This document shows, one piece after another, positions 5,193 to 23,010 of a DNA stretch of 23,171 nt. Within the stretch, counting starts at the first letter, position 1; every line of letters starts with the position of its first letter. Made by a program: the position numbers and the translations under genes. The stretch spans positions 1-23,171 of the IMG/VR virus record IMGVR_UViG_3300025732_000274; one strand, given 5' to 3'. Source of the DNA: a virus. Below the pieces are notes generated by a model. That model did no database searches. It had not been told where the DNA came from and worked only from the letters and a program-made list of their open reading frames with translations.

Positions 5193-5905
5193 AGGCGACT
5201 CTAACACTCACGAACAACACGGGCACCTCGGTGCCTGCGGGCTACTCCGTCGACGTGGCCCAGCCGACGTCGTTCAACCACGCCACGCTCGTCACGGCCT
5301 TGCGGTCGAAGACGAACGGCTACGACATCCGAGTGCTCGACAGCGACGGCACGCTCGCCGGGCTGTCGTCGATCTCGAACCCGAACACCTCGACGTGCCG
5401 GCTGATCTTCAATCTGACCAAGGCTCTCGCGTCGGGCGGCGGCTCGTCCGTCTACACCGTCGAGTTCACCGACCTCAGCCGCCTGATCAACCCCGCGACG
5501 GCGACGGCGGGAGCCACGGTCACGAGCCGCGGCGTCACCCTCACGGCCTCCTGGTCGATCCCGGCGGTCACGCTCCCGGTGCCCGGCTACCCGTACAGTT
5601 TCACCCGAGCCGACGCCGTCGACGAGTTGTCGTACCCGTCGTTCCCGACGACGCGCCGCGCTCGTCGTCACACGAATCCGACGACGATCATCGAGGCCGC
5701 ATGGGTGGCGATCGCCCCGGAAGAGTTCTACGAGATCCGAGCGTTCAACCACGCCTACGGAGGAGGCTCCGGGACGTTCACAGAGGCCGCTGTGTCGTGG
5801 CTTGACGCAGGAACCTACCGAGTACAGCCGAACAGCCTACGGCTCGTCCAGGAGGCGCGGCTGGCCTATCGCGCCAACGTGACCATTCTGAAGGTGCCGC
5901 TATGA
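5189..5905 (+). CDS. Two-domain beta protein: DUF2341-like N-terminus, gpM-like C-terminus
   Basis: A 238-residue protein starting at the ATG of an ATGA overlap with the preceding gene. The same frame is open further upstream, but that part lies inside the neck gene. Residues about 1-105 resemble the DUF2341 concanavalin-like module (GYSVDVAQPTSFNHATLV, YDIRVLDSDGTLAG, VYTVEFTDLS). Residues about 145-238 begin with PTTRRARRHTNP and show a strand pattern (IIEAAWVAIAPEEFYEIRAF, then RLAYRANVTILKV). This resembles the gpM-like C-terminus of the protein at 9620-10936, which has PTTRRRRRWTLGWVALP followed by a similar run of strands. Position between the neck and terminator genes suggests a virion protein, possibly decorating the head, neck or upper tail. 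No function can be assigned with confidence, and the domain calls are by eye. Confidence 0.5.
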   Translation: MKATLTLTNNTGTSVPAGYSVDVAQPTSFNHATLVTALRSKTNGYDIRVLDSDGTLAGLSSISNPNTSTCRLIFNLTKALASGGGSSVYTVEFTDLSRLINPATATAGATVTSRGVTLTASWSIPAVTLPVPGYPYSFTRADAVDELSYPSFPTTRRARRHTNPTTIIEAAWVAIAPEEFYEIRAFNHAYGGGSGTFTEAAVSWLDAGTYRVQPNSLRLVQEARLAYRANVTILKVPL

Positions 5906-6369
5906 CGACCGCCTACCGTGAGACCGTGTTGGCCGCCTTGCAAGGCAAGCTCGACGACATCGTCACCGACGCGGGGCGGACGTGGGCGCAGACGGTCGCG
6001 CCGCGCGTCGTGCGCGTCCGGCAGAACGCCGAGGCCCTGCCGCTCGTGCCGACCTGCTACATGGGCACAAAGGACGAGGCGATCGAGCGCCGCGAGGCCA
6101 CGTCGAACTACGTCCTGTACGTCAGGTCGCTGACGGTCCTGCTCGAGTACTACGTCCAAGCATGGGACGTCGACCTCGAGTGCTCGAACATCGTGCACGA
6201 CGTCGAGTTGGCCTTGGCTGACTGGACGCTCGGCGGGGTCGTTGACGACATGGCGATCACGGCCGAGCGCACGCTGATGGGCGACCCCGGACAGCCGCTG
6301 TGCGGGGTCGAGTTTACGGTGGTCGTAAGATATCGAACGTCGAGCGCGGATCCGTCCGCCCGACGCTGA
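5902..6369 (+). CDS. Probable tail terminator protein
   Basis: A 155-residue protein starting in an ATGA overlap, with AAGGTG six bases or fewer upstream. It directly precedes the tail tube gene, where siphophages encode the gpU-like terminator that caps the tube and joins it to the neck. The makeup is an N-terminal helix (RETVLAALQGKLDDIV), a strand region (APRVVRVRQNAEALPLVP), central strands and helices (SNYVLYVRSLTVLLEYYVQ), and a terminal strand (GVEFTVVVRYRT) that fits the V-x-V-x-Y-R ending common in this group. The alpha/beta order agrees with the gpU/HK97 gp9 fold. The call rests mainly on position and size. A minor tail component is the alternative. Confidence 0.62.
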   Translation: MTTAYRETVLAALQGKLDDIVTDAGRTWAQTVAPRVVRVRQNAEALPLVPTCYMGTKDEAIERREATSNYVLYVRSLTVLLEYYVQAWDVDLECSNIVHDVELALADWTLGGVVDDMAITAERTLMGDPGQPLCGVEFTVVVRYRTSSADPSARR

Positions 6370-8148: not shown

Positions 8149-9623
8149 TCCTGAAGGTCAAGGACGAGATGTCGCCCATCCTCCCGAGGATTGGTGAACG
8201 GTTCACCGGGATCTTCACGAAGATGAAGGCATCGGCGAAGCAGTTCTTCGACCAGTTCAGCGACCTGAACTTGGAGAAGGTTTCGCGGTTGGCCAAAGCC
8301 CCGTTCGAAATGATCAGCAAGTTCGGCGCGAAACTGCGCGAACTTGCACCCGACGCCAAGAAGTTCACGGAGTCGTTCTCCGAGGACGAGATGAGGACGA
8401 TCAACAAGGCCGCCGAGAGTTACAACCGACTCGGCGCGTCGATGAACACCTTTATCGGTCAGATGATCGCCGCGGTCCCCGGCCTGAACAGCGCGATGGA
8501 GTCGCTGGCCAACACGATGGATCGGATCACGGGGATCGACGAACGCTCCAAGGATCGTGCGGCTCTCCTCAAGGACTTGGCCGATGCTCAAGCCGCTTTC
8601 GCGCAGGGTCCTCCATCAGGCAGTCAAGAAGGATCCGCTCTTTACAAGGAATACATTCGCCTCCACGGCGCAGTCATCGCGGCTCGTGAGGCTCTGAAAG
8701 CCTTCGATAAACAACAGCAGGAGATGGCGATGAAGCCTCTCCGCGAAAAGTTGCAGAAGGAACGCGAGGACTTTGATCGGATTCAAGCCGCGAACAAGGC
8801 AGCCGGGACGTTCCTCCGGGACACTCGGCAGGGACCCGGTGCCGCAAGCCACCAGGCGCAGCGGGACATCGCCGAACTGCGTCGAATGTCAGATGCTTGG
8901 GTCGAGGAGACCAACAACAAACTTCTGCCCACCGTTGAGAAAGTTTTCAGTGACGCAGCCGACGCGGCCAAGCAAGCAGAAGATGACATGCTCGACGACA
9001 CGGCGAACATGCTTCGCGTCAAGGCGAAGATGTACGACGACGACCGCAAGGAGTTTGAGAAGTCAGAAGAGGATAAGCGCAAGGCTGCCGCAGAAACGAC
9101 AGCCGAGAACCTTGCCACACTCCAAGCCTTTTACGAGAAGTCCTCTGCCGTCCGCGCCGAGAACGCCGAGCGGCTCCGTCAGCAGATGGAAGCCGAGATC
9201 GAGCGGATCAATCAGCAGCTAGAGCAGGTCGCAGGCATCATGTCGAGCGCGTTCCTGTCTGGCTTTGAAGACATCATCCGTGGCACGAAGTCGGTCGCGG
9301 AAGCCTTCGGCGCGATGGTGGCCCAAATCATGTACGACGTCGGTCGAATGCTTGCTTCCGAGGCATTGACGGGTCTGTTCCGAGACTTGTTGAAAGGTCT
9401 CTTCGGAACTTCCGGTGGACGTGACATCAGCAACGCCGGAGTGCAGGCTGGCAGCCTCGATATGCCATCGTATGCACCATCAACTGGTGGAGGCCGGACG
9501 GGCGTAACCATCAACGTCAACGGTGCTCGCGATGCGACAGCCGTGGCGCGTGAGGTGCGTACGGCGATCCTGAATCTCGCCTCCACCGACAGCAGCGTGC
9601 GCCGCCGTCTTCAACTCTCATGA
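8121..9623 (+). CDS. Tail tape measure protein (short)
   Basis: A 500-residue protein that sets tail length and is carried inside the tube. It starts at the ATG at 8121, giving MGNDSILQVVLKVKDEMSP, a common tape measure opening. GAGG lies four to five bases upstream. The longer in-frame start at 8064 would add residues translated out of the chaperone extension. The body is largely helical and charged with long coiled-coil stretches (about 200-370). Near the C-terminus, SGFEDIIRGTKSVAEAFGAM and the amphipathic segment that follows (to about 440) match lambda-type tape measure ends. It is followed by a glycine-rich piece and GVTINVNGARDATAVAREVR. Using the usual rule of about 0.15 nm per residue, the tail would be about 75 nm long (inference). 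The ATGA stop overlaps the next gene. Confidence 0.88.
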   Translation: MGNDSILQVVLKVKDEMSPILPRIGERFTGIFTKMKASAKQFFDQFSDLNLEKVSRLAKAPFEMISKFGAKLRELAPDAKKFTESFSEDEMRTINKAAESYNRLGASMNTFIGQMIAAVPGLNSAMESLANTMDRITGIDERSKDRAALLKDLADAQAAFAQGPPSGSQEGSALYKEYIRLHGAVIAAREALKAFDKQQQEMAMKPLREKLQKEREDFDRIQAANKAAGTFLRDTRQGPGAASHQAQRDIAELRRMSDAWVEETNNKLLPTVEKVFSDAADAAKQAEDDMLDDTANMLRVKAKMYDDDRKEFEKSEEDKRKAAAETTAENLATLQAFYEKSSAVRAENAERLRQQMEAEIERINQQLEQVAGIMSSAFLSGFEDIIRGTKSVAEAFGAMVAQIMYDVGRMLASEALTGLFRDLLKGLFGTSGGRDISNAGVQAGSLDMPSYAPSTGGGRTGVTINVNGARDATAVAREVRTAILNLASTDSSVRRRLQLS

Positions 9624-10936: not shown

Positions 10937-11616
10937 TGCCCGAATCAATCAACAGCGAACTCACGACGCTCAAGAACCTGATCCATTCGCAGAACGGATG
11001 GATCTACCTGTTCCTCATCGAGCTCGACGGCAGCAACAAGGCCGCTCTCTGCGGTCACGACACGACCGTCACTCATGACGGCATCACCTATCAGAACTTC
11101 CCGATCAATATCGGATCGTGGACTCGCGACGTCGACGGAAACCTCGCGCAGCCGACGGTAACGGTGTCGAACCTCAGCCGCGAGATGGCCAACTACCTCG
11201 AGGCGGGCGGCCTGCTCGACCGTCGCGTGCGCGTGTACGCCAAGAACCTCGGGTCGTCGAGCGTCGTCGAGTTCGGCGAGTGGCGCATCATCGAGGCGAC
11301 GGTCAGCCTTGACGTCGCCATATTCCGCATCGGCGTCTACCAGTTGTTCGACGCGCCCTTCCCGCAGCGTCGGCAGTTTCGCAGCCGATGCGACTACCAG
11401 TACGGAGGCAGCGAATGCGCGTACCAGATCTCGCTGCCGAATCTGATCTCGTCGACGAATCCGAACTTCGACGGCAGCACCTGCGACTACACCATCGGCG
11501 GCGAAAACGGCTGCCGAGTTCACGGACTGAACGAGGCCGCCAACGGTCAGTTCAAAGCACACCCGGCCCGCTTCGGCGGGTTCCCCGGCATTCCGAAGGG
11601 GCCTGCCCGTGTCTGA
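10936..11616 (+). CDS. Minor tail protein L-like, four-cysteine (Fe-S) tail tip hub protein
   Basis: A 226-residue protein starting at the ATG of a TAATG junction, with AAGAGG about eight bases upstream. The N-terminal domain (about 20-145) has [24 protein letters not shown] and [15 protein letters not shown], and ends with [10 protein letters not shown]. The C-terminal part has C152-x8-C161 and C183-x9-C193, then the ending [10 protein letters not shown], typical of gpL/DUF2163-like tail proteins. Lambda gpL binds a [4Fe-4S] cluster through four C-terminal cysteines, and the spacing here is very similar, so the same cluster is likely. It should form part of the distal tail ring that holds the central receptor-binding protein. 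Order with the neighbouring gpM-like and gpK/I/J-like genes matches lambda. Confidence 0.85.
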
Positions 11617-14600
11617 ACTTGAATACGAAAAGTGGCACGACCTGCTCGGTCAGCCTCACGAACCGCTCGGCTGCTGGCTCTTGGTCGCCGAAGTCTACCG
11701 TCGCAGCGGCAAGATTCTGCCGTCGCACCCCGCGGCCTACCTCGGAGGCAACGGCTGGCAGCGGGTCGATGCCAACAACCCGTCGCCGCTCGACATCATC
11801 GTCACGGGCCAAGACGGAGTCATCAAGCATGTCGCGGTCTACATCGGCAAAGGCAAGATCCTCCACTCGGTCGAGGGCTCGTGCGTTCGCGTCGATTCGT
11901 ACTCGTCGCTGAAGAAGACAGGCACGGTGATGTGGGTCGGTCGTCCCGGCCCGGCCTCCGAGATCGAGGCGATGCCCATGGATCTCGACGGCCTGACCGT
12001 CGTCGAGGTCCCCGACGTCCTGACGCCGCGCTCGAGGACGATTCGGCAGGCCCGTCCCGGCATGCGCGTGCGCGACTACAAGCCCGACTGGGCCGATGCG
12101 TTCATCGACGCCCACGGCCCGTCGACGGACTTCAATCGAGTCGCCGACCGCGGCGAGATCCTTCTCTTCTACGCCGTCCCGGGCGCGACTGCCGCCGCGA
12201 CTGCCGCCATCGTCACCGACATTCTCGCGGGTGTCGCGCTCATGGTGGCGGGCATGCTCCTTCTCAAAGTCATCGGTGGTGGACAGGCTGCGCCGCAGGA
12301 AGAAGGGAGGCCGGGGTTCGACCTTGAGGGCTTTCGTAACACAGCAACGGTTGGCATTGCGCAGCCTGTCGTTTACGGCGAGCACAAGGTGGCAGGCAAT
12401 ATCGTGTCGGCTTTCCAACGGGTCGACACCGACGGTCGCCGCCAGCTGTACATGCTGCTCCTTCTCAGCCGCGGCCCCATCGAATCCATCGGGGGTATCG
12501 GCTCGGATCAGGATGATCTCCAAGGCGCGGCGATTCCCGAAGCAATACAGATAAACGGGAACCCAGCGAGCAACTATCCGGTCTCGATCTACACGCGCCT
12601 CGGCTCATCGAATCAGGAACACATCCCCGGGTTTGATGAAACCGTTTCAAGCATCGGTGTTGGCGCGACTCTTCAGCAGAATCAGCCCTACGTCTACACC
12701 ACATCGGGGGCGGTGACCTCGGCCGAAGTATTGATCACGTTCCCTCAGGGTTTGTACTCGGCTACGGGCGCGATCACCGTGGCCACGTTCAAGATCCGGT
12801 ACCGCGAGCAAGGGGCCACGACTTGGGTCGACCTCCCGCAGAAGACGACCGGAGGCGGTGTCACGCTGACGCCTGCGCAGCAGGCCGCGACGACCAACGC
12901 GACGCTCGTCGTTATCAAGCAGACGCGCACCGAGCACGCCGCGCTCTACCGCATTGACTTCCCGTCCGAGAAGACCTACGAGATCGAGGTCACGCGCCTT
13001 TATCCGACCTACCCTGACAGCGCGAACGTCGTGACTCAGTCGGTTTTCGACGAGGTCAACGAGATCACGGGCGACCGGCTGACGTACCCGGGCAAGGCGC
13101 TCCTCGGCCTTGTGGCGACTGGCAGCGACACGATCGGCACGTCTTTGCCCAACGTGACGACGGTGATCAAAGGACGCCGGGTCTACGTTTGGGACGGTGT
13201 GTCCGAGCGCAGCCCCAACTTCACGCAGCAATGGACGCAGAACCCCGCGTGGATCTGTATGGACATGCTGCTCGACAAGAACTACGGTATGGGCCGGAAT
13301 GGCCAACTGACGCTCGACAACGTCGACCTGCAGTCGTTCAAGGACTGGGCCGACTACGCCGACACGATCCCAGAGGTCGGCAACGGCGTGCGTGCTCAGT
13401 GCGATCTGCTCATCGACTCGACCTCGAGCGGCTGGGATCTCGTCACCAGTCTCGCCACGTCGCACTTCGCGCGTCTGCTTTTCGTCGGGTCGAAGGTCAC
13501 GGCGATTCCGGACAACGCCAAGACCGTCACGGGCGTGTTCTCGATGGGGAACGTCCGCGACTTCGCGATCCAGTACAACGGAAACCGCACCCGTCCGAAC
13601 GCCGTCGAGGTGCAGTACTACAACGCCTCGACGAACTACGAAGCCGAGCAGGCCCTTCAGGTCGAGTCCGCGGCGCTCATCGCCGGCGAGACGGTACGCA
13701 AGGAATCCATCGCGGGAACGGGCATCACCCGCGCGATCCAAGCCAACCGACTGGCTAAGCGCCGAATCCTGACCGCGCAGAACGTGAGCCGGGTCGTCGA
13801 GTTCACGGTCGGCGTCGAGGGCATCGCGGTCCTGCCGATGGACGTCGTCCGCATTCAGCACGACTCGTCGAGCAAGGGCAAAGGCGGACGCATCCTTGTC
13901 GTCAACTCGACGACGTCGATTCAGCTCGACACGCAGGTGCTGACCGCCGACCTGTCGGGAGCGACCATCTATATCCGCGTCGTCTCGGGCGGCGTCGACA
14001 CCGTGATCAGCGGCACGCCGACCGGAACCGATCAGGCCGAGCACTCGACCGTCACGTTCACGTCGGCTCTCTCGGTGCTTCCGAGCGCGGGCGACCCGTA
14101 CGGCTTCGGAGCCGTCGGCGCGACGGGCTGGCCGAAGTTGTTCCAAGTCTCGTCTGTCACCCACAACGAAGACTTCAGCCGCCGAATCACGGCCTACGAG
14201 TACAACGCCTCGATCTACTCCGACGATCCCGGCGAGATCGAGACGTTCACCGACACGATGCCCGACCCGCGGGCGATGCCTGCCCAAGCCACCGGGCTGC
14301 GCCTCAACGAGGAGTTCCCCGAGGCGTGCGCGGGTGGCTGCGGCCTCGCTCGCGTCCGCGCCGACTGGAACCTCGACACGGGCTGGGAAAAGGCCGACGT
14401 CTACTACGGCATCGCGGGCGGTGACGGGCAGATCTGGCAGTACGTCGGACGGTTCGAGGACACCGCCACCTTCGACGTCGAGCCCGACCAGACCTACAAC
14501 GTCAGGATCGTGCCTGTGTCGTCTCAGGAGACGCGCAGACGCCCCGCGGCGGTCATCGAGGGGTTCATCTACCCACGCGGCGACAGGACGCCCCCAAGCC

Positions 14601-16447
14601 CGCCCAGCGCCGTCAACGCGACGGTCGCGAATCAGGTGCTGTACGTCCTGATCGAGCCGCCATCCGGTCAAAGCGTCGACGGGTACGAGGTCCGGTATGC
14701 GTCGGGCTCGGGCTCGATCTTCGCCGGCGAGCCTAGGTTGGGCTACACGCGCTCCGACACGTTCACGATCGCGTGCCCGTCGACGTCTACTTTCTACCTG
14801 CACGTGCGGTCGCGCACCGCTCGAGGCGTTCTCTCGGAAACCTCGACGACCGTGCGGGTCGATCCGACGACTCCGACGTCGACGTACACCACGAAGCAGT
14901 CGATCTCGGACACGGGATTCCCCGGCACGAAAAGCAACACGGCCGTCACCTCGGGCAGCCTTTTCCTGTCGGGGTCAAACCTATCAGGCACGTACGTTTC
15001 CACGGCGTTCACGTCGACGGGCAATCGCGCCTGGTGGTTGGTCTCTTCGACTCTCGATCCTGTCGACCGCACGTGGGACGAGTCCGGCCGCGCTTGGGCC
15101 GACGGCGACGAGACGTGGGCCTCGGCCTACCTGACGGGCGAAGAGGCCGGGCCGAACCCGACGTGGGCCGACGCGGGGTGGACATGGGGCGGCACTATCG
15201 GTTCCGTCATGGCTTGGGCCGGATGGCCGGACGTCATCGGGCAGTTGACGCCGACCGTCGAGACCCGAATCAACGCAGGGTCGTACGTCGAGCTGACGAC
15301 CCTCGAGGCGTCGAGCATCACGAGCGGCGACGTCAAGGTCACGATGCGTCGTCCGCACGACCGCTATCAGCCGAAACTGACGGCTGTCGACGGACGTCTA
15401 TCGGAATGGTCGGCGACCGCGAGCAGCGCGGTTGCAGGTTACTTCGGGCAGTTTTGGTCGACGCAGGATCAGACGGCCGCCGCGATCAACACGGGCTACG
15501 CGGTCACCTTCAACAACAGCGACTCCAACAACAGCGGAGTCTCGGTCGTGTCGAACTCTCAGATCGAGTTCGACTATGCGGGTACCTACTCGCTGACGTT
15601 CTCGATGCAGTTCGTCAACGTGGACACGCAGATCCACGATGTGAACGTCTGGTTCAAGTTGAACGGCACCAACATCGCCGACAGCGACTCGAAGTGGTCG
15701 GTGGTCGAGTCGCACGGTGGCACGGACGGCCACGCGATCGGCACGGTGAACTTGGTCGTCACGGTCGACGCCGGAGACTACGTCGAGTTGTTCTGGTCAG
15801 TCGACGACACCGATATCTCTCTGCAGTACATCGGGGCGGTATCGCCGGCTCCGGCAATCCCGAGCGTCATTCTGACCGCGGTGCCAGTTGCAAACATCCT
15901 CGAAGGACCTCAAGGCCCGACCGGGTTGACGGGTGGTCAAGGTCCGCAAGGTGCTACGGGATCGCAGGGGGCTACTGGACCCCAAGGGTCGACGGGCGCT
16001 CAAGGCCCTCAAGGGGCCACGGGTTCGCAAGGAGCGACGGGATCGCAAGGTCCGCAAGGCGCGACGGGCAGCACCGGAGCGCAAGGCCCGCAGGGCATTC
16101 AAGGCCCTCAGGGTGCCACGGGCTCCCAAGGGCCGCAGGGTGCCACCGGGCCTCAGGGTGCAAAGGGCGACACGGGACCACAGGGTGCGACTGGCCCTCA
16201 AGGCGCACAAGGTGCAACCGGACCGCAAGGCACGAAGGGCGATACAGGGCCACAAGGTCCACAGGGAACCAGTGGGCCGCAAGGTGCTAAAGGCGACACC
16301 GGACCGCAGGGACCGCAAGGTGACTCGATCACCGGGCCTCAGGGGGCGACTGGTGCGCAAGGTCCACAAGGCCCACAAGGCGCATCAGGCGGTGGTGGCG
16401 GCGCGGCGATCTACGATATTCTGAAGACGGTTACGATAGGCGTCTGA
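11609..16447 (+). CDS. Tail tip megaprotein: NlpC/P60 peptidase + gpI-like + gpJ-like + C1q-like + collagen-like
   Basis: A 1612-residue protein starting with GTG, eight bases into the end of the gpL-like gene, with GAAGGGG about eight bases upstream. Residues about 1-112 form an NlpC/P60 cysteine peptidase: Cys22 in [13 protein letters not shown], His74 in IKHVAVYIG, His86. This is the gpK-type enzyme that opens peptidoglycan. Residues about 122-230 resemble gpI, with a hydrophobic Ala/Gly-rich helix at about 191-222. From about 240, [19 protein letters not shown] starts the gpJ-like hub, with the usual gpJ core following ([22 protein letters not shown]). An FN3-like domain lies near 990-1090 and a C1q-like beta domain near 1280-1428. 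About 53 Gly-X-Y triplets follow (1433-1593). In lambda these are three genes, K, I and J. The host-binding parts should be the C1q and collagen segments. Confidence 0.88.
15905..16387 (+). repeat. Collagen-like Gly-X-Y repeat tract 1
   Basis: Forty-seven unbroken Gly-X-Y triplets (mostly [12 protein letters not shown]), a two-residue break (IT at 16328-16333), then six more. The coding DNA is a degenerate nine-base repeat. Such tracts fold as trimeric triple helices in phage fibres. It follows a C1q-like domain, the reverse of the usual order in animal C1q proteins, and ends in a short Gly-rich tail. Confidence 0.95.
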
Positions 16448-17529
16448 TGCTCACTCTCGGCACCACAACTCAGACTCTCGAGGCACTGCTTGGTGGCGCG
16501 GCTGCCACGACGAACCCCGCGGCGGTCGTGTCGTACGCCGAGCACACCGCGACGACGTACACGGGGAAGGTCCAACACACCGACCTGAACGGCACGACTG
16601 CGGTCACGATTCTGTCCGCACCTGCGTCGTCGACCGAGCACGTCGTTCGTGGCGTGGCCATCTCGAACATCGACACGGCGGCTGTCACGCTCACCGTCCG
16701 CTTCAAGGACACGAGCGGCTCGACCGTCTACCGCACCGTCTTCAAGGCCACGCTGTCGGTAGGCGACACGGCAGGCTACGACGACGACGGCTGGTACGTG
16801 ATGGACTCGACTGGTGCTCGCAAGGGCATCGGTGCGACCGGAGCGCAAGGGCCACAGGGCGTTGCCGGAGCTCAAGGCGCGACGGGGGCTCAAGGTCCTC
16901 AAGGCGCAAAGGGTGCCGACGGTGCGCAGGGTGCGCAGGGTGCCCAAGGTGCGACTGGCGCACAAGGCGCGACAGGTGCCCAAGGCGCGACTGGGGCTCA
17001 GGGTGCAACGGGAGCGCAAGGCGCGACAGGTGCCCAAGGTCCGCAAGGAGATCCGGGTGCAGTTGGCCCACAAGGTGCCAAAGGCGACACGGGACCACAG
17101 GGACCCCAAGGCGCACAGGGCGCAACGGGTCCTCAGGGCGCAAAGGGCGACACGGGCGCGACCGGGCCTCAGGGGCCGCAAGGTGACCCGGGCGCAACCG
17201 GGCCGCAAGGGCCTCAGGGTGCCAAAGGCGACACCGGAGCGACGGGGCCGCAAGGTCCACAAGGCGATGCGGGTCCTCAAGGTGCAACGGGTGCACAGGG
17301 CGCACAGGGCGCGCAAGGTCCACAGGGAACCGCCGGATCTCCAACCGACGCACGCTACGTCGTCACGGGCTATAGCAGCGGCCTCAGCGACGAACGTTTG
17401 CTGACGGCTGGCACGGGCATCACGATCACGGACAACGGTGCGAACAACACGGTGGTCATCGAGGCCACGGGCGGCGGCGGCGGAACGTCGGCACCTGATT
17501 ACATGTTCTTCTTCAACGGAATCATCTGA
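16447..17529 (+). CDS. Collagen-like tail fibre protein
   Basis: A 360-residue protein starting at a TGATG junction with the preceding megaprotein. Residues 1-128 form a beta-rich head ([20 protein letters not shown], then [18 protein letters not shown]), probably the attachment or trimer-nucleating domain. Residues 129-299 are 57 continuous Gly-X-Y triplets. The C-terminal part has [20 protein letters not shown] followed by [11 protein letters not shown], a short repeat known from many phage fibres, where it often precedes the tip. It ends with a glycine run and [11 protein letters not shown]. It should make a trimeric flexible fibre at the tail tip. Proline hydroxylation is not expected in bacteria, so stability would come from charged and Gln/Thr residues (inference). 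A whole-gene call is secure, the role is inferred. Confidence 0.82.
16831..17343 (+). repeat. Collagen-like Gly-X-Y repeat tract 2
   Basis: Fifty-seven unbroken triplets within the fibre gene. An almost pure (GAT GAQ) run occupies triplets 14-23, and [12 protein letters not shown] units repeat later. At DNA level it resembles tract 1 (15905-16387) in phase and wording, so the two could recombine and change length. Confidence 0.95.
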
Positions 17530-19960: not shown

Positions 19961-20341
19961 ATGGACAAGATCCTCGAAAACGCCGACCTGACGGACCTCC
20001 TTCTCGGAGTCGTGCTCGCGCTTCTTGCCATCGCGATGCGGTGGATCGCCAAGAAGGCGAAACTGAACGACGCGCAGAACGAGGCGATGGAGCAGATCCT
20101 GCTTGCCACCCAAGAGGTTCGCCGCGTCTACGTCGACGCCATCCGCAAGGCATCGGAGGACGGAGTGGTTACCGACGAGGAGAAGCGCCTCGCGCTCGAT
20201 CTCGCCAAGGCCCGACTCCTCGAGCGCGTTGGTCCCGAAGCCAAGAAGCTTGTCCTCTCGTGGGGCGAAGAGCGGCTCCGAGGACTTCTGCAGATCGCCA
20301 TGGAAAAGGTCACGGCAGACAAGCCGGCTCCGGTGGCCTGA
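19961..20341 (+). CDS. Single-span membrane protein, LLH-holin-like
   Basis: A 126-residue protein. One N-terminal membrane span (about residues 11-28, LLLGVVLALLAIAMRWIA) is followed by a long charged helix (KKAKLNDAQNEAMEQILLAT, then ASEDGVVTDEEKRLALDLAK) and ends with LLQIAMEKVTADKPAPVA. This layout, one span then a cytoplasmic helix with D-G-x-V/L-T-x-E-E, fits the Holin_LLH group. No Shine-Dalgarno precedes the ATG, which lies just after an inverted repeat. It starts a run of four membrane or lipoprotein genes that looks like a lysis cassette. An i-spanin-like role is an alternative, since i-spanins also have one span and a helix, but those helices face the periplasm. Confidence 0.55.
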   Translation: MDKILENADLTDLLLGVVLALLAIAMRWIAKKAKLNDAQNEAMEQILLATQEVRRVYVDAIRKASEDGVVTDEEKRLALDLAKARLLERVGPEAKKLVLSWGEERLRGLLQIAMEKVTADKPAPVA

Positions 20342-20642: not shown

Positions 20643-20971
20643 CTTGGATCTACTGGATCGCCAACCTGTGCGGTATGGTCGGCATCGCCGCGCTCAACGT
20701 CGCGATGTTCGGGCGCGAGAACTCGCGCGTGTACAAATGGCCCAAGTGGCAGTCGACGACTCTGCGAATCTCCATGCTCGCCGTCATGGTCGGGCACGCT
20801 TACTGCGTGATCGACATGGGCAAACCAACGTTCGGTGAAGTCGTGCTCGCCTGCGGTTTGGGCTTCATCTTCCCGTGGACTGCGTGGTACCACTGGAACA
20901 TCTTCGTCGTGAAGTACCGAGAGGGCATTCCGTTCCGCAAGGAGCAGGTCATCGAGAGCGATCTTTCATGA
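20639..20971 (+). CDS. Small three-span membrane protein, possible second holin or antiholin
   Basis: A 110-residue protein starting in an ATGA overlap with the putative holin gene. Hydrophobic segments lie at about 4-23 (IYWIANLCGMVGIAALNVAM), 42-58 (LRISMLAVMVGHAYCVI) and 66-90 (GEVVLACGLGFIFPWTAWYH). The final 20 residues are charged (KYREGIPFRKEQVIESD). The family was not recognised. Aromatic residues are frequent. Tight coupling to the holin candidate suggests a second holin, an antiholin, or a membrane partner. Confidence 0.55.
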   Translation: MTWIYWIANLCGMVGIAALNVAMFGRENSRVYKWPKWQSTTLRISMLAVMVGHAYCVIDMGKPTFGEVVLACGLGFIFPWTAWYHWNIFVVKYREGIPFRKEQVIESDLS

Positions 20972-21360
20972 GCGCGATCTTTGCCTTCCTTGCCAAACTG
21001 ATCGCCGACGTGCTCGGCATGGCGCTCGACAAACAGAAGACCACTGGCAGCGTTTCGCACGGCAACACGAAGCTCGTGCCCACACCCGTCGATGAGCTCA
21101 AGGAAAAGGCGCGACGTTCTGGCTTACTTGGGTTGGTGGCTGTTTTTCTTTGTGGTTGTGGCACCACGCATGTGGTGGTCGCGACGCTCCACCCCATAGA
21201 GCCGGAAACGGCTGGGTGGCCCCGAGTTGCGCAGGACGAGGTTCGGGTGCTGCTCGACGGGACCGACAAGATCGGCGTCGTGAGCCCCGCTGGCGGTTAC
21301 TTCTTGGTGCATGAGGCCGACTTAAAGGGCCTGCTCCGCGCCGCCGCGGAAAAAAAGTAG
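20968..21360 (+). CDS. Lysis-cluster lipoprotein (o-spanin-like) with extra N-terminal segment
   Basis: A 130-residue protein starting in an ATGA overlap. Residues 1-50 carry an amphipathic helix (FLAKLIADVLGMALDKQK), then VDELKEKARR. Residues 52-61 are hydrophobic (GLLGLVAVFL) and run into the lipobox L61-C62-G63-C64. The mature part contains HPIEPETAGWPRVAQDEVRV, GVVSPAGGYFLV and a terminal helix, like small phage lipoproteins near holin genes. A lipoprotein signal normally sits at the very N-terminus. Here 50 residues come first, so either two genes have fused, or a second start is used, for instance the GTG at 21076 (V37), though no Shine-Dalgarno is seen there. Around 21110-21165 the codons shift to tta, ctt, ttt and tgt. 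The o-spanin role is inferred from context. Confidence 0.6.
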   Translation: MSAIFAFLAKLIADVLGMALDKQKTTGSVSHGNTKLVPTPVDELKEKARRSGLLGLVAVFLCGCGTTHVVVATLHPIEPETAGWPRVAQDEVRVLLDGTDKIGVVSPAGGYFLVHEADLKGLLRAAAEKK

Positions 21361-21422
21361 AGCCGGAAACCTTGGTTCCGTAAGGGTTTACAGCGTTCCG
21401 CAAAAAATCTTTTCTTCGGTAC

Positions 21423-21451
21423 TTGCTTTTCAATATTAAGTCCGGCATGAT
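21423..21451 (+). promoter_or_regulatory. Weak sigma70-like promoter candidate
   Basis: TTGCTT (21423-21428), a 17-base spacer, then CATGAT (21446-21451), with three and four matches to consensus. It sits in the most AT-rich stretch of the 133-base gap (21361-21493), at the boundary between the lysis cluster and the replication block. The spacing is right but the boxes are poor. Confidence 0.25.
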
Positions 21452-21456
21452 GTGAC

Positions 21457-21482
21457 CACTTCGCAGCAAGGTGCTGCAAGTG
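21457..21482 (+). promoter_or_regulatory. Hairpin/dyad next to the ribosome binding site of the gene at 21494
   Basis: CACTTcGCAGCA (21457-21468) and TGCTGCAAGTG (21472-21482) pair in eleven base pairs with one unpaired C (21462) and an AGG loop. The last paired base is the first G of the Shine-Dalgarno GAGGA (21482-21486). No T-run follows, so it is not a terminator. It may be an RNA switch over the start site or an operator. Confidence 0.6.
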
Positions 21483-21493
21483 AGGATTTAGCC

Positions 21494-21670
21494 ATGAGTA
21501 CCGTTGTTTTCTACCTCGTCCTGTTGTCCCTGTTACCGCTCGCTGCGGCGATCGGTTTATCGGAAACCGCGATGGCCGTGCCGTTCGGCATCTGCCTCGT
21601 CATGCTTCTCGCGGGTCCCCGCGGCTGCACCTACCTCGCCAAGTCGTGGCTGAAGGGCGGTGCCAAGTGA
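21494..21670 (+). CDS. Two-span mini membrane protein, function unknown
   Basis: A 58-residue protein. The ATG at 21494 is chosen because GAGGA lies seven bases before it. A GTG in frame at 21452 lies upstream of the hairpin and has no ribosome site. Two hydrophobic segments, about 3-21 (TVVFYLVLLSLLPLAAAIGL) and about 27-45 (MAVPFGICLVMLLAGPRG), are followed by a basic end (YLAKSWLKGGAK). It opens the block of regulatory and replication genes rather than the lysis cluster. It was not recognised. Superinfection exclusion or membrane anchoring are possible, but nothing shows this. Confidence 0.65.
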   Translation: MSTVVFYLVLLSLLPLAAAIGLSETAMAVPFGICLVMLLAGPRGCTYLAKSWLKGGAK

Positions 21671-21936
21671 ACCACCGCAAGAAGCGCACCGTCGTCAAGA
21701 CGCCCAGCACCGACCGCGCCTGCCGCCCGTGGTCCTTCGAGATGCGTGCCGCCGTCTACCGCGCCCACAAGGCCGGAGCGTCGGACGAAGACCTTGCGAT
21801 CCTGACGGGCCGCACCATCGAGGCCGTCAAGCAGCAGATCGGAATCGTCCGTCGCCGCGACGTGCGGCTCTTTGATTCCTCGTTCCTCGAAGAGTTCCGG
21901 ATCACCGAGGGCTCGCCGAAGGGTGACAACTCGTGA
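21667..21936 (+). CDS. Small basic helix-turn-helix-like protein
   Basis: An 89-residue protein starting with GTG in a GTGA overlap. The frame is open further upstream but only inside the preceding gene. The N-terminus is basic (NHRKKRTVVK). The centre, PWSFEMRAAVYRAHKAGASD then EDLAILTGRTIEAVKQQIG, reads as helix-loop-helix-turn-helix of the type W-S-x-E...G-x-S-x-x-x-L-A-x-x-x-G-R-T-x-x-A-V. It resembles SANT/Myb-like or sigma region 4-like DNA-binding folds. RRRDVRLFD follows. Its neighbour also encodes an HTH protein, so the pair may control this operon, perhaps through the dyad at 21457-21482 (inference). Confidence 0.62.
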   Translation: MNHRKKRTVVKTPSTDRACRPWSFEMRAAVYRAHKAGASDEDLAILTGRTIEAVKQQIGIVRRRDVRLFDSSFLEEFRITEGSPKGDNS

Positions 21937-22145
21937 AGTTCCAAGAACTCATCAAGACCAAGTTCGCAAGCCTGCAGATCTTCGCCTCCGTCATCAACGT
22001 GCCGGCTCCCACCGTCTCGCACTGGTGCCGAGGGTTGGCGATCAGCAGGAAGCATCGTCCGACCGTGTGCATGGTTTTGGAAGTAACCCCAGAAGACCTG
22101 CTCAAGTTGCAGGTCGAATGCCTCAAGGAGAACTACCGTGATTGA
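21933..22145 (+). CDS. Cro-like helix-turn-helix regulator
   Basis: A 70-residue protein starting with GTG in a GTGA overlap. FASLQIFASVINVPAPTVSH then WCRGLAIS gives a helix-turn-helix of the Cro/YdaS kind: the first helix ends at INV, the turn at PAP, and the recognition helix is TVSHWCRG. RKHRPTVCMVLEVTPEDLL then resembles the last helices of such small repressors. The size is that of Cro-type regulators. It precedes a recombination ATPase gene. The target sites are unknown. Confidence 0.65.
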   Translation: MKFQELIKTKFASLQIFASVINVPAPTVSHWCRGLAISRKHRPTVCMVLEVTPEDLLKLQVECLKENYRD

Positions 22146-23010
22146 GATCGTCAAGGGTCGATCCCTCGCTCCCGACCGTATCCTCGTGTACGGCCGCCCG
22201 GGCGTGGGCAAGTCGACGTTCGCAGCCGGGGCCACGAACCCCTTGTTCATCGACGTCGAGCGCGGATCGGGTGCGCTCGAGGTCGACCGTGTCCACCCGT
22301 GCAACTGGAAGGCCGTCCTCGAGGTCATCCGCAACTGGCCCGAGGGCTACTCGACACTCGTCATCGACACGCTCGACGCGCTCGAGAAGTTCATCTTCGC
22401 CGACGTGTGCAGCGAGGCCGACGTCAAGACCATCGAGGACATCGGCTACGGGAAGGGCTACGCTCGCGCCATCGACCGCTGGGTCGAGTTGCTCGGTGCT
22501 CTCGACACGCTCCGCATCGGCCGCGGGGTCGAGATCATCCTGATCGCCCACGCGACGGTGCGCTCGATGACCAACCCCGGCGGGTCGGACTACACCAAGT
22601 GGGAACTCGCCGTGCACGCCAAGTCGGTGGGATTCATCACGGCGTGGGCCGACACGATCGCCTTCGCGGACATCGACCACACGATCACGAACGACGAGAA
22701 GATCCTCGTCAACGGCCGTCGGATCCTGCGTCTCGCGCCTGGTGCGTGGGAGGCTAAGTGCCGCTATCGCGGAACGCCTGCCGTCATCGACAACTCGTAC
22801 GACGCCTACGCGGCGGCCCGTTCCAAGGCCGGGGCGAAGTCGGCGAAGGAACTGTTCGGAGAGGCGACGGCCATGGCGGTCGCGATCCCCGACCTTGAGA
22901 CGCAGAAGAAGATCGTCAAGTTCCTCGACGACAACCAGCACAACGCCGCGAAGTTGGCCTCGGCCATCGACCGCATGAAGAAGATGGAGAAGACCGATGG
23001 GATGGCTTGA
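22138..23010 (+). CDS. Phage RecA-fold ATPase (AAA_24 / Sak4-like)
   Basis: A 290-residue protein starting with GTG, AAGGAG lying seven bases upstream, and overlapping the HTH gene by eight bases. Walker A is G19-R-P-G-V-G-K25-S-T. Walker B is likely STLVIDTLDAL with D77. LFIDVERGSG after Walker A, and IILIAHATVRSM (about 135-147), a sensor-like strand with His, match the AAA_24 group, which includes Sak4 single-strand annealing-related proteins of phages. The C-terminal 60 residues are helical and lysine-rich. It would act with an SSB-like partner in phage recombination or replication, and a candidate starts directly downstream. Assignment to AAA_24 is firm by wording. The Sak4 role is inferred. 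Confidence 0.8.
   Translation: MIEIVKGRSLAPDRILVYGRPGVGKSTFAAGATNPLFIDVERGSGALEVDRVHPCNWKAVLEVIRNWPEGYSTLVIDTLDALEKFIFADVCSEADVKTIEDIGYGKGYARAIDRWVELLGALDTLRIGRGVEIILIAHATVRSMTNPGGSDYTKWELAVHAKSVGFITAWADTIAFADIDHTITNDEKILVNGRRILRLAPGAWEAKCRYRGTPAVIDNSYDAYAAARSKAGAKSAKELFGEATAMAVAIPDLETQKKIVKFLDDNQHNAAKLASAIDRMKKMEKTDGMA

Follow-up and report, generated by a model that had tools for sequence, protein, structure and literature searches.

A conserved leader hairpin, possibly 5'-terminal on the mRNA, at the start of a replication-side operon in an uncultured phage group

The IMG/VR virus record IMGVR_UViG_3300025732_000274 was analysed over positions 1 to 23,171 (the window, 23,171 nucleotides (nt) in full), in which all 22 genes called by a rough gene caller lie on the + strand. 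The 3' end of gene 20968–21360 is followed by an AT-rich gap (0.41–0.43 GC), where a hairpin-forming dyad (21457–21482) runs into the Shine-Dalgarno (SD) sequence of an operon encoding a mini membrane protein, two small proteins, and a Sak4-like single-strand annealing ATPase. An initial annotation described this as the only real gap between late and replication genes, a fair description that is not exact, as the rough gene caller leaves other stretches uncalled. The reading that we tentatively favour is that the dyad forms a 5'-terminal hairpin on the mRNA of this replication-side operon, shielding the transcript end and adjoining the ribosome-binding site.

Direct reading of the dyad revealed 11 Watson-Crick pairs, one bulged C, and the loop AGG, in agreement with the 11-bp stem and three-base loop first annotated. 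The stem base does run into GAGGA, with G21482 serving both as the last base of the stem and the first base of the SD sequence; position 21494, given as the end of the element, is the A of the ATG start codon of the 58-amino-acid (58-aa) open reading frame (ORF), and the stem itself ends at 21482. The predicted energy of the 26-base hairpin was −12.8 kcal/mol, and 57 other places on the + strand of the window were at least equally stable in 26-nt windows, so that energy alone carries little information in this GC-rich phage. Likewise, an 81-nt stretch around the hairpin did not fold better than its own shuffles (z −0.09). Two places in the window had at least 11 Watson-Crick pairs (one 1-nt bulge allowed, loop of 3 to 8), compared with 10 positions in total across 20 whole-window shuffles, or 0.5 each. 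By itself the dyad is only mildly unusual, and the weight rests on its conservation and position. The outer arms, CACTT and AAGTG, pair solely via the bulge, that is, with a one-base offset, an arrangement more in keeping with RNA than with a DNA dyad. The stem is followed by AGGATTTAGCC without a T run, and a promoter and terminator scan found no terminator-like site there, which argues against an intrinsic terminator or attenuator; Rfam covariance models gave no match up to an E value of 10 in 21300–21700.

Scans of viral contigs recovered seven related IMG/VR records with the leader: 3300049042_000164 (L003), 3300025848_000490 (L005), 3300025889_010900, 3300045125_000055 (L014), and, in a third lineage, 3300025585_000253, 3300006641_003419, and 3300010370_000356. 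Together with the window they comprise six distinct leaders in three lineages; 3300025848_000490 and 3300025889_010900 show two mismatches over their overlap, and 3300025585_000253 and 3300006641_003419 have the same leader. Loci with a distant Sak4 match at 34–38 percent (L035, L036, L037) or with only a helix-turn-helix (HTH) match (L045–L048) were left out; they lack the other genes that surround the leader, and L036 in addition matches the HTH protein and the protein of 5902–6369 weakly. A profile of 19961–20341 gave no new record. Seven of ten loci with a loose dyad pattern (L001, L002, L004, L007–L010), viral contigs outside the phage group, were dropped because none of the 17 window proteins compared had a match in them. 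AT-rich stretches read in L003, L049, and L051 were coding-looking or without a promoter-hairpin leader. No paper on this leader came up in literature searches, which were not aimed at proving absence.

Alignment of the six distinct leaders disclosed a sigma-70-like promoter, TTGnnn-16/17-YAnnAT, in every one, with CTTG and the end of the -10-like box invariant and with promoter, hairpin sequence, and SD sequence in the same order. The versions are TTGCTT-17-CATGAT in the window and TTGCTA-17-CAAGAT, TTGTTA-16-CATCAT, and TTGACA-16-TAGGAT in the relatives. This conservation supports the upstream promoter of the initial annotation, which would place the hairpin in the 5' leader; a generic promoter scan did not list the window's promoter (21423–21451). 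From the promoter geometry, transcription is predicted to start at about A21458, inside the stem foot. The 58-aa ORF could be extended in frame to GTG 21452, giving a 72-aa reading with the hairpin inside the coding sequence; this was rejected because the GTG has no SD sequence and precedes the predicted start, and also because the frame of the L012 leader has no start codon ahead of the hairpin. Upstream of the promoter, the block TAAGGGTTTACAGCGTTC (21381–21398) is retained by the close relatives and in part by L014.

In the gap-free comparison of the 113 bases before the start codon in the window and in 3300025848, 2 of 26 hairpin bases differ vs 28 of the 87 other bases (Fisher one-sided p 0.009). 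The hairpin has the lowest 26-base sliding difference count of the leader, and of its two differences one is in the loop and the other affects the outermost pair, a pair that lies outside the RNA if the transcript starts at A21458. The -35 and -10 stretches and the block at 21381–21398 are largely kept too. Across the three distinct rows of the close group, 10 of the 11 stem pairs are invariant. The initial annotation had named arms that vary without compensation in relatives as a sign against the element; the arms turned out to be kept rather than freely varying.

Outside the close group, the leader of 3300045125_000055 consists of unrelated bases that form CGCCC-AACCTA-GGGCG before GGAG, and in the lineage of 3300025585_000253 the bases immediately ahead of GGAG can fold as CGTCC-CAAGT-GGACG. 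The two leaders of the latter lineage differ in the five bases ahead of the hairpin, and their hairpins are identical. In 5000 single-base shuffles of the stretch from the -10 box to the SD sequence, p without the SD was 0.033 for the window, 0.013 for 3300025848, 0.018 for 3300045125, and 0.38 for both 3300025585 and 3300010370; with the SD included, the values were 0.006, 0.031, 0.036, 0.091, and 0.119, respectively. By these values, one unrelated leader clearly has a hairpin again, whereas in the third lineage its recurrence is weak. In that lineage (L019, 5841–6300; L028, 1589–2040) the gene order begins with another small ORF, followed by a small hydrophobic ORF and the HTH protein, and because the first gene is a different one, the element belongs to the promoter and leader and not to the mini membrane gene. 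As a separate observation, the arms GTCC, GGAC, and GTCC around the SD sequence in L019 (5841–5905) and L028 (1589–1650) could form two mutually exclusive hairpins, one of which would hold the SD sequence in or beside its loop.

The coordinates of the leader and of the genes behind it are collected in Table 1. An operon with two HTH proteins had been annotated initially; the 70-aa protein bears this out through its match to PF13443, and the 89-aa protein has weak HTH matches only, with no match in Pfam. The mini membrane protein matched nothing in Pfam or PHROG. In 3300045125_000055 the Sak4-like gene (L014, 4001–4870) is split over frames, through a frameshift either of the phage itself or of the assembly. 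Elsewhere in the window, long collagen-like Gly-X-Y repeats occur in the tail-tip and following proteins (11609–17529).

Table 1. Leader elements and operon genes in the window.
Feature	Position	Strand	Remarks
-35-like hexamer TTGCTT	21423..21428	+	CTTG invariant in 6 distinct aligned leaders; relatives TTGCTA, TTGTTA, TTGACA
-10-like hexamer CATGAT	21446..21451	+	17 nt after -35; relatives CAAGAT, CATCAT, TAGGAT at 16–17 nt
Predicted transcription start, A	21458	+	7 nt after -10; also A in the close group
Hairpin 5' arm CACTT(c)GCAGCA	21457..21468	+	C21462 bulged; kept in close relatives
Hairpin loop AGG	21469..21471	+	AGT in the 3300025848 and 3300025889 records
Hairpin 3' arm TGCTGCAAGTG	21472..21482	+	last G to A in the 3300025848 and 3300025889 records
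Shine-Dalgarno GAGGA	21482..21486	+	direct reading; GGAG in relatives
Mini membrane protein, hydrophobic, 58 aa	21494..21670	+	translation
89-aa protein, weak HTH resemblance	21667..21936	+	phrog_5497 and phrog_686, E about 0.036
70-aa Cro/C1-type HTH protein	21933..22145	+	PF13443 HTH_26, 7.9e-05, 23.3 bits vs cut-off 22
Sak4-like single-strand annealing ATPase	22138..23010	+	PF13479 1.8e-40; phrog_124 1.7e-42

A hairpin at the very end of a transcript, before the SD sequence, is best known as a 5' stabiliser; the 5'-terminal stem-loops of the Escherichia coli ompA and papA mRNAs resist 5'-end-dependent decay. Here, the promoter would start the mRNA of the mini membrane protein, the two small proteins, and Sak4, and as the RNA would begin within the stem foot, few or no bases would dangle at its 5' end. 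With its end paired, the RNA may be less open to conversion of its triphosphate and to decay that depends on the 5' end, while the hairpin, with the SD sequence directly after it, could keep the leader folded away from the ribosome-binding site. PMC3997798 describes RppH and RNase E as dependent on 5' ends that are single-stranded, and states that adding a 5' hairpin stabilises bla mRNA and leaves rpsO and T7-made lacZ mRNA unaffected.

Several observations weigh against this reading. The close group shows no compensatory change in its three distinct rows and, with 10 pairs invariant, demonstrates a conserved sequence rather than a proven RNA structure. The hairpin is weak in the lineage of 3300025585 and 3300010370 (shuffle p 0.09–0.38), and when 110 nt of transcript are folded, this lineage is predicted to swap it for another fold, in which the start-codon region becomes the partner of the 5' end (unpaired probability 0.02–0.19 for the first four bases). 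In L013, with a hairpin identical to that of the window, the first five bases are unpaired with a probability of 0.25–0.62 at 110 nt, suggesting that downstream sequence can compete with the hairpin. The stem stays in the window and L012 at this length, with the SD sequence mostly paired; much of the SD sequence is paired in L013 as well, which a simple insulator does not predict. Finally, a TGTTATAAT match upstream in the 3300045125 leader is a possible second box, from which the RNA would carry a longer 5' tail. The predicted 110-nt folds make a simple insulator less convincing and leave room for a role in translation.

The initial annotation proposed an operator or a translational switch; the evidence leans towards an RNA leader hairpin tied to the promoter rather than to the mini membrane gene, with a DNA operator as the main rival. 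According to this rival, which we regard as unlikely but worth serious attention, the Cro/C1-type protein (21933–22145) would be a repressor of its own operon, attaching over the transcription start at the inner dyad GCAGCA-AGG-TGCTGC. In its favour, a gene for such a protein, identified by PF13443, lies close by, and as the dyad diverges so does the protein (77, 46, and 29 percent identity). The dyad also overlaps the predicted start, a classical repressor position, and by reading, the inner dyads are similar in length across the three lineages (15, 16, and 15 bp). Against this, the symmetry of the outer five bases depends on a one-base offset, and the gap between half-sites varies between lineages (3, 6, and 5). 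Cro/C1-type repressors usually have more than one copy of their site, although single operators exist. The search for further copies suggested in the initial annotation found no second inner dyad with at most one mismatch in the window, 3300049042_000164, or 3300025848_000490, all of them fragments; two-mismatch matches to the inner 15-mer occurred once in the window, inside a gene at 11706, and once in L005. For the dyads of the other lineages, L034 had a one-mismatch match (at 8261), whereas L032 and L033 had none.

We consider it improbable that the hairpin is an RNA operator, bound by Sak4 or a small operon protein so as to block the adjoining SD sequence, in the way that T4 DNA polymerase acts on its mRNA. 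The position of the hairpin beside the SD sequence would fit, the operon encodes a nucleic-acid-binding replication protein, and the SD sequence is paired in several leaders in the long folds. With the top A-T pair opened, all loops show by reading AA near the 5' side (AAGGT, AAGTT, AACCTA, CAAGT), but the resemblance is short. Loop and stem sequences differ widely between lineages while Sak4 keeps at least 52 percent identity, and the first gene differs in one lineage. T4 gene 43 is a model for such an operator (PMC3014915); by comparison, the RNA-binding repressor is hypothetical here, and the lineages do not share their stem and loop sequences.

Also doubtful is a chance hairpin in a short leader, its conservation reflecting only constraint on the promoter and initial transcribed region. 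The 57 equally stable places and leader shuffle values that are moderate, and weak in one lineage, are compatible with chance; the stem, however, is kept while 28 of the 87 other leader bases change, and lineages that show no sequence similarity at this slot again have a hairpin-forming sequence in it. Least probable of all, a Sak4-type recombinase or small operon protein would sense its own level on the leader hairpin and shut the adjoining ribosome-binding site, with the hairpin co-evolving with the protein; we know of no such autoregulation for the Sak4-type class, for which no search was made.

If the 5'-terminal hairpin reading holds, this uncultured phage group has a compact native leader of promoter, start-site hairpin, and SD sequence, suggested to persist as an architecture while its sequence turns over. 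Such a leader would be useful for locating operon starts in uncultured phages, the principle being already known. Like Cro/C1-type operators, the element is a short dyad over the start of an operon encoding a Cro/C1-type protein; unlike them, it is single-copy in the close group, with offset outer arms and a variable half-site gap. Compared with ompA and papA, the start site and the decay effect are predicted here, and the SD sequence touches the stem. As in those E. coli mRNAs, the hairpin would lie at the 5' end of its transcript; it is a real, conserved leader hairpin of a known kind, with an inferred function.
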